A DNA stretch of 39,133 nt, taken from assembly GCA_947632155.1 (NCBI GenBank), contig CANROF010000024.1, forward strand, positions 1 through 39,133, given 5' to 3'. Numbering within the stretch: position 1 is the stretch's first letter; each line of letters opens with the position of its first letter. This document shows positions 4,534-37,084 of the stretch, piece by piece. This DNA is from an uncultured Oscillospiraceae bacterium (GTDB taxonomy: Bacteria > Bacillota > Clostridia > Oscillospirales > Oscillospiraceae). The notes below the pieces were generated by a model, which had not been told where the DNA came from, made no database searches, and saw only the letters and a program-made list of their open reading frames with translations. The translations under genes were made by a program, and so were the position numbers.

Positions 4534-4793
4534 ATACTAATATCCATTTAAAATGAGACACCGAGCGGCGAGGATTTTTTGTGTCAGGCAAGGAAGACGC
4601 CGCAGGGAATACTTTGTGTATTCCCAAGGCGGCTGACGCATCCGGGGTCCCCGGCGGGCAAAGCCCGCTGGGGAGAGGAGGAGCCAAGCCTGCGCCTGAG
4701 GGCGACCAAAGGGAGCCCGAGGTAAAGCGGCTTGAGCGACGACGACGCGAAAAAGCCCGCCGCGAATGGCTTATTTTAAGTGGATATTAGTAT
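4534..4793. mobile_element. MITE-like element with terminal inverted repeats carrying a structured RNA core
   Basis: The ends are inverted copies of each other: ATACTAATATCCA-T/C-TTAAAAT-G/A-AG (4534-4556 against 4770-4793). Weaker pairing extends inward over GCGGCG and a T-run. There is no credible protein-coding gene inside. Element ends could be read with a TA target duplication, as for IS630/mariner-type MITEs, but this is not certain. The interior has a hairpin with a perfect 8-bp GGGAATAC/GTATTCCC stem (4604-4625) within a GTCAG/CTGAC helix, then the core at 4670-4745. Its right end overlaps the stop codon of the GH26-like gene by one base. Confidence 0.6.
4670..4745 (+). ncRNA. Structured RNA core, copy A (shared with 20621-20696)
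   Basis: The core starts GGGGAGAGGAGGAGC and ends AGCGACGACGA, with the internal blocks GCGCCTGA, CGACCAA, GGGAG and GAGGTAAAGCGG. The copy at 20621 keeps these blocks, while the bases between them change in pairs: CAAG/CTTG here against GATG/CATC there, and GGG/CCC here against ACC/GGT there. Such compensatory change is the mark of a folded RNA. Orientation is taken from copy B, which lies sense-strand after lepA. The family was not identified; an IscB-associated (HEARO/omega-like) RNA is one possibility. Confidence 0.6.
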
Positions 4794-18764: not shown

Positions 18765-20570
18765 ATGACCGATCAATCACGAATCCGCAATTTTTCCATC
18801 ATCGCCCATGTGGACCACGGCAAGTCCACGCTCTCCGACCGGCTCATCGAGCTCACCGGGGCCGTGCCCAGCCGGGAGATGCAGGACCAGCTCCTGGACA
18901 ACATGGACCTGGAGCGCGAGCACGGCATCACCATCAAGGCCCGGGCCATACGGCTTGATTACAAGGCCGCCGACGGGGAAGACTATGTCTTGAATCTCAT
19001 CGACACCCCGGGCCATGTGGACTTCGGGTATGAGGTCAGCAGGTCCCTGGCCGCCTGCGAGGGGGCCGTACTGGTGGTGGACGCCGCCCAGGGGGTGGAG
19101 GCCCAGACCCTGGCCAACACGTACCTGGCCCTGGAGCACGACCTGGACATCCTGCCCGTTATCAACAAGATCGACCTGCCCGCCGCGGACCCCCAGCGGG
19201 TCAAGGAGGAGATCGAGAACGTCATCGGCCTGGAGGCCCAGGACGCGCCGGAGATCTCCGCCAAGACGGGCCTCAACGTGCCCGCCGTCTTAGAGGCCAT
19301 CGTCCGGAAGATCCCCGCCCCCTCCGGGGACAGGGACGCGCCGCTGCGGGCCCTCATCTTCGACTCCCAGTACGACGCCTACCGGGGCGTGGTGGTGTAC
19401 GTGCGGCTCATGGACGGGCAGCTCCACACCGGGGACCGTATCCGCATGATGGCGTCGGGGGCGGAGTATGACGTCATCGAGTGCGGGCACCTCCTGCCCA
19501 AGAGCTACCGGCCCGAGGAGGGCCTTTACGCCGGGGAGGTGGGCTACCTCACCGCCTCCATCAAAAACGTCCGGGACACCGAGGTGGGCGACACCGTGAC
19601 GCTGGCCTCCGCCCCCGCCGCGGAGCCCCTGCCCGGATACCGCCCGGCCCGGCAGATGGTCTACTGCGGCATCTATACCGAGGACGGCAGCAAATTCCCG
19701 GACCTCCGGGACGCCCTGGAGAAGCTGCAGCTCAACGACGCCAGCCTCTCCTTTGAGCCGGAGACATCCGCGGCTTTGGGCTTTGGCTTCCGCTGCGGCT
19801 TTTTGGGGATGCTCCACATGGAGATCATCCAGGAGCGCCTGGAGCGGGAGTTCAACTTGGACCTCATCACAACGCTCCCCTCCGTCATCTACGAGGTCAC
19901 AAAGACCGACGGGTCTGTCGTGATGGTGGATAACCCCCACAACTACCCGGACCCCTCCGCCATTTTGGAGACGAAGGAGCCCTACGTGGCCGCCTCCATC
20001 ATCACGCCGCCGGAGTTCGTGGGCAACATCATGCCCATGTGCCAGGAGCGGCGGGGCGAGTACCGGGACATGCAGTATCTGGACACAAACCTGGCGGAGC
20101 TGCGGTATCTGATGCCCTTGGGGGAGATCATCTACGACTTTTTCGACACGCTGAAGGCCAAGACCCGGGGCTACGCGTCCCTGGACTACGAGTTTTCGGA
20201 GTACCGGCCCTCGGACCTTGTGAAGGTGGATATGCTCCTGAACGGCGACCAGGTGGACGCCCTCTCCTTCATCGCCCACCGGGACAAGGCGTATCCCAGG
20301 GCGCGGAAGCTCTGCGAGAAGCTGAAGGACAACATCCCCCGGCAGCTCTTCGAGGTGCCGGTCCAGGCGGCCATCGGCGGAAAGATCATCGCCCGGGAGA
20401 CGGTGAAGGCCCTCCGCAAGGACGTCCTTGCCAAGTGCTACGGCGGCGACATCACCCGCAAGAAGAAGCTTTTGGAGAAGCAAAAAGAGGGCAAAAAGAA
20501 AATGCGCCAGCTCGGGACCGTACAAATTCCCACAGAGGCGTTTATGGCGGTGCTCAAGTTAGACGAATAA
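18765..20570 (+). CDS. lepA: Elongation factor 4 (LepA) GTPase
   Basis: Ribosome-associated GTPase with roles in subunit biogenesis and, in vitro, back-translocation. The 601 residues include [35 protein letters not shown] and NKIDLP in the G domain, then the EF-G-like domains and the LepA-specific C-terminal domain ending [15 protein letters not shown] at 18765 is preceded by CAGGAGG. The last 69 bases (20502-20570) are repeated at 20698-20766 with only synonymous differences, and a structured RNA lies between the two copies. Confidence 0.97.
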
Positions 20571-20697
20571 CAGACGCGGCGCATTTTCTTTTGGGGCCCC
20601 CGCGCGATCCTTGATCGCGTGGGGAGAGGAGGAGCGATGCCCGCGCCTGAACCCGACCAACGGGAGGGTGAGGTAAAGCGGCATCAGCGACGACGAT
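20571..20697 (+). mobile_element. Insert between lepA and its displaced 3' end, with structured RNA copy B
   Basis: 127 bases lie between two copies of the lepA end. The left part (20578-20592, GGCGCATTTTCTTTT) is the exact reverse complement of 15 bases of lepA at 20494-20508. A long hairpin (CCCCGCGCGATC/GATCGCGTGGGG, 20598-20624) leads into the RNA core at 20621-20696. The core ends directly at the displaced lepA segment. No reading frame inside looks coding. Non-autonomous mobile RNA element is the favoured reading, by inference. Confidence 0.55.
20621..20696 (+). ncRNA. Structured RNA core, copy B
   Basis: It shares with 4670-4745 the blocks GGGGAGAGGAGGAGC, GCGCCTGA, CGACCAA, GGGAG, GAGGTAAAGCGG and AGCGACGACGA in order and at equal spacing. 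The helix arms differ in pairs: GATG (20636-20639) with CATC (20682-20685), and ACC (20651-20653) with GGT (20667-20669). Probably transcribed with lepA. Confidence 0.6.
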
Positions 20698-20766
20698 ATG
20701 CGCCAGTTGGGGACCGTACAAATTCCCACGGAGGCGTTTATGGCCGTCCTTAAATTGGACGAATAA
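20698..20766 (+). pseudogene. Displaced duplicate of the last 22 codons of lepA
   Basis: These 69 bases encode [14 protein letters not shown] then MAVLKLDE and a stop, identical in protein to the lepA C-terminus at 20502-20570. Seven codons differ, all synonymously (for example CTC/TTG, ACA/ACG, GTG/GTC, AAG/AAA). There is no ribosome site for it and it begins exactly where the RNA core ends. It is read as a gene end displaced by insertion of an element, or as one attachment half-site. Confidence 0.75.
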
Positions 20767-21642: not shown

Positions 21643-21783
21643 TTCAATATTTTTTCCAAGGACATGCGCCTTGGAAAAAATCCCTTTTGTCGCACAAGTG
21701 CCGCCTACGGCGGCGCGCAGGGCGACAGCAGGGAAGTTTTCGCTGAATTTCGCAAAATTCAGCGAAAATTTCCCGCACGTTCC
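21643..21783 (-). ncRNA. Structured 3' element, family C copy 2 (sense, downstream of the CBS gene)
   Basis: Read on the minus strand it has ACGTGCGG, a long hairpin (GGGAA-TTTTCGCTGAATT with its complement; plus-strand 21731-21774), CCCTGCTGT, a GCCGCC/GGCGGC hairpin, ACAAAAGGGATTTTT, a TTCCAAGG/CCTTGGAA hairpin and AAAAATATTGAA. Order and linkers match 16671-16822 while the stems are different sequences. Confidence 0.55.
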
Positions 21784-37007: not shown

Positions 37008-37084
37008 GTCTCCGTAGCTCAGCAGGATAGAGCGTTCGCCTCCTAAGCGAAAGGCCGCGCGTTCGAGTCGCGCCGGGGACGCCA
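37008..37084 (+). tRNA. tRNA-Arg(CCT)
   Basis: A complete cloverleaf: acceptor GTCTCCG/CGGGGAC, D stem GCTC/GAGC, anticodon stem TTCGC/GCGAA with CCT at 37042-37044, T stem GCGCG/CGCGC with loop TTCGAGT, discriminator G and encoded CCA. The element carrying the integrase starts just downstream, so the 3' end of this tRNA is the probable attachment site. Confidence 0.95.

Follow-up and report, generated by a model that had tools for sequence, protein, structure and literature searches.

How can a gene end twice, in two versions that spell the same residues with different codons, and what is the structured RNA that lies between them? The lepA locus of the window (the whole analysed stretch of DNA, 39,133 nucleotides long) raises this question. 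The genome that contains it is called G000, and other G and L numbers are genome and locus labels. The features of the locus are as follows.

18765..20570, + strand: lepA (elongation factor 4), closing in the first tail; NCBIfam TIGR01393, E 7e-298, residues 6-600; ATG and TAA in frame
20494..20508, + strand: A1, lepA bases across the duplication start, codons KKKMR; inverted repeat I4, 15 nt, 100% complementary to 20578-20592
20502..20570, + strand: T1, first copy of the lepA 3' end and the one in use; direct repeat D1, within the lepA frame
20578..20592, + strand: A', guide-like inverted copy of A1 that adjoins the RNA on its left; a 12-20 nt counterpart lies at the same place in relatives
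20593..20695, + strand: R1, 103-nt structured RNA repeat, a hairpin and then a tandem-GA stem; model R1 115.5 bits, covariation, 29 matches in this genome
20698..20766, + strand: T2, second, displaced copy of the lepA 3' end with 8 silent differences; direct repeat D1, codon comparison

The first-pass annotation of this DNA had reported that the last 69 bases of lepA occur twice, and the repeat search of the window returns exactly the stretches it named, 20502-20570 and 20698-20766, with 88% identity. Codon comparison bears out its further statement that seven codons differ and every change is silent: the 8 base differences give the codon pairs CTC/TTG, ACA/ACG, GCG/GCC, GTG/GTC, CTC/CTT, AAG/AAA and TTA/TTG, 7 of 7 synonymous. 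The duplicated host-gene sequence flanks the insert, and the upstream copy completes lepA. T1 and T2 share 58 of 66 bases, while the tails of 24 other species of the genus share at most 57 with T1 and 59 with T2; the window tails are therefore about as far apart as species are. Nine of these 24 tails are nearer to T1, ten are nearer to T2 and five tie, and which of the two is native to the window genome cannot be told from the genus tails.

The 127-nt spacer (20571-20697) folds better than shuffled sequences (z -3.0, folded as 20571-20700) and holds a structured RNA, as had been annotated. This RNA, R1, is a repeat found throughout the genus, and its structure covaries, with 20 of 30 pairs changed on both sides among 13 sequences. 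It is matched 29 times in G000 and in 30 of 34 genus genomes at E 1e-3. No Rfam family reaches threshold for R1 in a search of the window and spacer, where the sole match is a tRNA at 37008, and phages and plasmids yield no R1 match. Beside it, A', which the first-pass annotation does not mention, is a perfect 15-nt reverse complement of the lepA bases that straddle the start of the duplication.

R1 is a dispersed repeat that elsewhere mostly lacks duplicated flanks, and it differs from the R2 scaffold described below. As a general carrier of gene tails it was rejected: a flanking direct repeat scoring at least 25 is present at 12 of 121 loci, against 3 of 123 controls, and several of the 12 are tRNA or other repeats. 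Guide-like inverted matches were likewise dismissed as a general property of R1 and belong to the lepA copy only; among 127 copies, the upstream inverted matches of all the others are at most 11 nt long, a length that mismatched flanks attain as well. The dispersal of R1 and the rarity of duplicated flanks would suit an old tandem duplication of the tail that was later hit by an unrelated R1, with A' being a chance or secondary feature. This explanation can be set against the lepA loci of related genomes.

Inserts at gene ends in related genomes

Within the genus, lepA mostly has a single tail without an insert. A second tail is present in 4 of 34 genomes, namely G000, G026, G029 and G021. The last three have a common spacer unlike that of the window, with an inverted target copy (degenerate in G021), and a third, partial lepA tail ahead of the next gene; the G026 spacer has no repeat elsewhere in the G026 genome. 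In G006, R1 and an A'-like stretch lie 3' of lepA, with no second tail.

For the family, a 28-residue profile of the LepA end was searched against 400 genomes, with follow-up in 18 + 80 genomes plus locus stretches. A duplicated lepA tail is present in at least 26 of the 400: G000, G026, G124, G129, G139, G141, G234, G254, G263, G264, G266, G276, G289, G290, G314, G320, G321, G357, G377, G380, G413, G429, G445, G446, G461 and G499. The figure is a lower bound, as genomes with a second profile match were re-examined in part, and G320 and G461 were found via R2. Classed by reading, the inserts comprise 18 with full or near-full R2, four with a shorter variant (G026, G263, G380, G445), two with R1-type RNA (G000, G321) and two of other kinds, an ORF in G139 and a lipoprotein-like ORF in G276. 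In 22 of the 26 genomes the order is T1, A', hairpin RNA (R2 or the shorter variant) and T2, at nearly the same codon; at the R2-type loci, T2 begins on a Gly or Lys codon of EGKKK (profile positions 3-5). T2 is broken in G124, interrupted in G445 and partial in G321.

Comparison of lepA 3' regions with and without the insert, which the first-pass annotation had suggested, gives a single tail wherever the element is absent in the cases examined. A duplicated tail always has an insert between its copies in the genomes examined, and a second tail standing as a tandem duplication without an element, which was to count against the proposal, was met in none of them. These observations speak against an old tandem duplication, as does the recurrence of A' at the same distance in independent genera. 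R1-like repeats do interrupt or truncate second tails, lying inside T2 in G445 and before the partial T2 in G321, which is in keeping with that explanation. Already weakened, it is regarded as very improbable.

An assembly or binning artefact is scarcely credible. The window belongs to an 89-contig assembly and some MAG contigs end at lepA tails, which would fit an artefact, but the same layout is found in the one-contig G314, the two-contig G234 and named cultured isolates such as Pseudoflavonifractor phocaeensis An507.

Several lepA loci depart from the common layout. At L202 (G234, two contigs), five lepA tails stand in a row; the array behind lepA has four units, each about 220 bp long, in which two tail variants alternate. 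At L201 (G276, 1012-1596), a lipoprotein-like ORF lies between two lepA tails, with neither R2 RNA nor A'. In G139, lepA and a second copy of its end are separated by an ORF (L200, 3589-4563, minus strand) in which a GIY-YIG-like motif was recognised by eye; the ORF matches DUF4357 weakly and has no Pfam endonuclease match at E 1. The 92 duplicated lepA codons of G139 contain 6 silent and 0 replacement differences, and the locus looks like a homing-endonuclease version at the same lepA end. Other candidates were discarded: the displaced tails of G301, G471, G322 and G444 are contig ends, G378 has a single tail only, and G333 has two full lepA genes instead of a duplicated tail.

The model R2 was built from 12 lepA scaffolds, with 25 of 38 pairs changed on both sides. 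In an alignment of 94 distinct sequences, 97.4% of the cells in the five helices are paired and 31 of 38 pairs are changed on both sides. Covariation scores 0.450, compared with no more than 0.076 once partners are slid by 1-3 columns; these values refer to alignment A4, which was fitted to the R2 structure, while alignment A3, from the model building, was not. Since the cells include 67 G-U and 18 A-C combinations, the folded strand is the one with A' on its 5' side. A search of Rfam with eight R2-type or other lepA insert loci gives only weak, unrelated matches.

R2 matches 149 of 400 family genomes and 57 of 106 genera (E 1e-4, at most 8 scored candidates per genome), and among the matches listed most are away from lepA. 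At the best 30 loci, a direct repeat crosses the scaffold in 30 of 30 cases (score 34-85) and begins 0-3 nt past it in 29; the mismatched-pair control for these loci (median 12.5, 95th percentile 49) is inflated by lepA-lepA pairs. A better control comes from 129 copies of the R2 core, which include copies from three viral contigs and of which 16 at contig edges were excluded. A flanking duplication scoring at least 25 is found in 76 of the 113 copies tested and in 1 of 113 mismatched controls. The other 37 copies are without duplication at this threshold, which counts against the main reading developed below; they are often found beside tRNA genes or in a phage- or ICE-like context, mostly without the outer hairpins. 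A search up to 6 kb around these 37 copies, many of whose contigs end sooner, found no autonomous form in which duplicated ends enclose an ORF.

The exact R2 core pattern occurs in at least 120 stretches of named genomes. Among the matches listed (80), most are from Flavonifractor (including F. plautii ATCC 29863), Pseudoflavonifractor, Intestinimonas, Oscillibacter and Oscillospiraceae; for some the label goes no further than Clostridiales, Clostridia or bacterium, and a single match is from a Ruminiclostridium sp. On balance, the element appears to belong to this family of gut bacteria, namely Flavonifractor, Pseudoflavonifractor, Intestinimonas, Oscillibacter and their kin. The search of phages and plasmids returned R2 only as partial matches in two phage records.

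At L271, L273, L281, L304, L326, L347 and L364, the R2 core without outer hairpins is near tRNA genes and is often followed by a terminator-like hairpin; such cores are perhaps a stand-alone RNA gene or a source copy. R2-like RNA is also seen in a plasmid-, ICE- or phage-like setting at L289, L317 and L388, in two of them just upstream of a ParA-like gene (by eye).

Most of the duplicated copies lie 10-34 codons before a stop codon with the gene end on both sides, so that the gene reads through to its stop. This holds for 66 of 95 non-redundant duplicated R2 copies, in 31 tail classes that were built from the last residues and count at least one gene twice; 18 copies in opposite sense and 11 unclear ones were left out of the codon analysis. 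Host genes confirmed by NCBIfam are lepA, asnS, aspS, rpsI, serC, ackA, infB, mnmG, uvrB, ychF, fhs and eutL, and further hosts encode an OmpR-type response regulator and a malic-enzyme-like protein (both below the cut-offs) and a conserved hypothetical protein. An R2 copy at the 5' end of lepA was seen at L256. The gene-end inserts in relatives point to a little-known mobile element able to enter a gene without breaking it. The element had been annotated as one that supplies a replacement lepA end; its tail-carrying layout is largely upheld, but its restriction to lepA is not, R2 being present at many genes.

Origin of the silent differences

Counted over the 66 non-redundant gene-end loci, the two tails differ by 221 silent and 53 non-synonymous codons, a non-synonymous share of 0.19. 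A simulation in which T2 drifts freely and T1 accepts only silent changes gives 0.66, and the copies were thus usually working gene ends at the time they diverged. This agrees with the earlier proposal that both tails diverged while each was in use. By the same measure, the chance of 7 silent codons in 7 under free drift of T2 is about 0.34^7, or roughly 5e-4 by our own arithmetic. For lepA itself, 20 intact tail pairs have 87 silent and 10 replacement codons; in this count, the G234 pair is T1 against the third tail. The silent excess is uneven, and this counts against the main reading: 11 of 22 loci with at least six differing codons have two or more replacements.

The excess can be read in two ways. 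The insertion may have happened in place, with a long target duplication only, in which case T1 would be the original and T2 its copy, and the silent changes would have arisen after the insertion, with gene conversion or some other function keeping T2 similar. Identical copies at several loci (e.g. L240 with 67 nt, L251, L241) are consistent with this, as are low-divergence lepA cases that contain mostly replacements (e.g. 0 silent and 2 replacement in G129) and the likeness of the tails found in one genome (G021, G026 and G029, each with three tails). The difference between 0.66 expected under free drift and 0.19 seen argues against it, as do the 7 silent changes in 7 in the window at a between-species distance. 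As a full explanation, duplication in place is considered rather unlikely.

Alternatively, one tail may have been imported with the element, as the first-pass annotation proposed. G499 contains an element-free lepA on another contig, which over 84 nt has 2 differences from T2 and 8 from T1. With 17 differences in 289 upstream bases, the two alleles of G499 are not from one strain. In G290, the 70 nt past T2 match the region downstream of lepA in the empty relative G227 (score 51, against 9 for the T1 side), a result that would fit duplication in place equally well; the coding part does not discriminate (66 of 72 bases for T1, 65 of 72 for T2). The comparisons for G377 and G289 likewise favour neither tail. 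The proposal of import is thus borne out in part: the T2 of G499 is nearly that of an element-free lepA, but where T1 and T2 are identical, duplication in place suffices.

The reading favoured for the window, with moderate confidence, is that it contains a derived copy of a small ORF-less mobile element that has moved with a donor gene end between strains and species. The standard element of about 150-170 bp would consist of A', a short inverted target copy, followed by the structured RNA R2. It would enter near a gene end with a target duplication of about 40-110 bp, presumably with the help of an enzyme acting in trans, and then pass from one strain or species to another by way of the flanking gene, through recombination or homing. 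Such spread would bring the donor gene end as T1 and leave the native end of the recipient as T2. An imported T1 next to a native T2 would explain why the silent differences are present from birth and why T2 decays slowly later.

In the lineage of the window, R1 would then have taken the place of the R2 scaffold together with some of the second target copy, leaving A' and both tails. In the window, R1 follows A' directly, and the first half of the target copy is missing from T2. The R2 model finds no match in G000 at E 1e-4, and R1 occupies the place of R2; what ties the window to R2 is therefore A', the duplicated tail and the common site. The probable replacement of R2 by R1 is the weakest step in the account.

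If this account is true, many gut bacteria carry RNA-only mobile elements that enter conserved genes near their ends and leave them unbroken, with targets including lepA, infB, asnS, aspS, rpsI and uvrB. It would show how a gene-less parasite can exploit the safest and most conserved targets, offer a natural parallel to engineered rescue drives, and set up a direct search for the enzyme. It would also account for silent variation at conserved gene ends and for contig breaks at some of them.

The inverted target copy and known systems

At lepA, A' was scored in the reverse complement of the first 45 nt past the stop codon. Scores are 12-20 in 21 of 22 element loci (8 in G264); six empty loci score 7-9, and the two with other inserts score 6. 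Most of the lepA matches cover the 20 bases AGAGGGCAAAAAGAAGATGC with 0-4 changes. Shuffled letters score 13 at the 99.9th percentile and 16 at maximum, and the lowest A' scores are therefore not significant singly.

A' may be the 5' guide of the R2 RNA, with a nuclease acting in trans that cuts the empty target A, repair that then copies in the element, and T1 serving as a recoded rescue end. Its fit to its own gene at differing genes is consistent with RNA-guided homing: an A' score of 9 is reached by 28 of 73 non-lepA elements, while the same-gene controls reach it in 3 of 146 cases and the other-gene controls in 59 of 5150. The match starts 3-8 nt ahead of the duplication in 22 of these 28, as if the cut fell a few bases inside the match, and the folded strand inferred from the G-U and A-C counts has A' on its 5' side. 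Against this stand the 45 of 73 non-lepA elements that score below 9 and the lack of a consensus beside the match in 18 sites, where alignment on a short guide is uncertain. Moreover, A1 is intact in the element-bearing allele (perfectly so in G357 and the window), so that the nuclease would cut its own allele. An IscB-type RRXRR protein, found in 1 of 47 genomes and 1 of 30 R2-rich ones and absent from G000, was rejected as the partner of R2. A' could also be a by-product of insertion, which explains more simply than a guide why each site has its own A'. On this sequence evidence a guide role of A' is no more than possible, and RNA-guided homing as a whole is held to be improbable. The fuller idea of a natural home-and-rescue element, in which an ORF-less guide RNA would home into empty alleles with an enzyme in trans, bring a recoded end that keeps the host gene working, and be spread over dozens of genes in one bacterial family, is equally doubtful.

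Some features of the favoured element have counterparts in known systems. Prophage e14 in the E. coli icd gene brings an alternative gene end that differs from the other by 12 SNPs, of which 10 are silent and 2 are replacements (PMC4759930). It resembles the present case in being an element in a gene 3' end with a replacement end and flanking direct repeats. It differs in being a prophage that uses site-specific recombination, whereas the present element is a structured RNA of about 130-250 bp without an ORF, with an inverted target copy, at many genes. A replacement end with mostly silent differences is present in the window (7 of 7 codons), and the window insert contains no integrase or recombinase, for which 127 nt leaves no room. 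The suggestion in the first-pass annotation that the pattern is that of site-specific elements is not sustained, as no integrase or other enzyme was found.

In the mitochondria of Glomus and Allomyces, mobile endonuclease ORFs carry an inserted C-terminus ahead of the native one (PMC3630166). The likeness extends to a duplicated end whose inserted copy is used, a native end downstream, changes that are mostly silent at the protein level, and occurrence in several genes. These fungal elements carry a LAGLIDADG or GIY-YIG ORF, unlike the R2 copies, and no endonuclease ORF lies between the two ends in the window; G139, with its GIY-YIG-like ORF, looks nearer to the fungal type than the R2 copies do. 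In effect, e14 and the fungal elements work as the present one would, but both have an enzyme gene, and neither is RNA-only at many genes.

The omega RNA of IscB/HEARO is comparable in having a guide-like 5' stretch followed by a structured scaffold (PMC9755519). R2 elements differ from it in their long target duplication and in having no target motif that was found. Neither the window, the spacer nor the eight loci with R2-type or other lepA inserts has a match to RF02033 (HEARO). A search of open PMC papers, which comprise neither preprints nor most subscription papers, found no description of an RNA-only element of the kind proposed here.

Diversity-generating retroelements have near-identical template and variable repeats at a gene 3' end, and the near-identical repeats at the lepA end are similar in this respect. 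The T1/T2 changes are of several kinds, extend beyond adenines and are all silent, leaving the protein unvaried.

Further observations on R1

R1 occurs alone or inside a MITE with the ends ATACTAATATCC...GGATATTAGTAT. One such MITE of about 260 bp is located at about 4534-4793 of the window, with R1 RNA inside it at 4644-4744 and many sister copies throughout the genome. At about 21665-21740, the window contains a palindromic repeat (tgtcgcacaagtg ... gcgcgcagggcgacagcagg) without R1, and in relatives (L093, L117 and L120) this repeat is found split by an R1 copy. By its sequence, the window repeat looks like an empty R1 site. The centre of palindromes was rejected as a target of R1, the permutation result (p 0.02) being driven by a few nested repeats. 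R1 copies often adjoin the 3' ends of tRNA genes (L014, L099, L107, L139 and others), and in three genomes they recur upstream of a gene whose product starts with MGKAYLILENG, probably carA as judged by eye.
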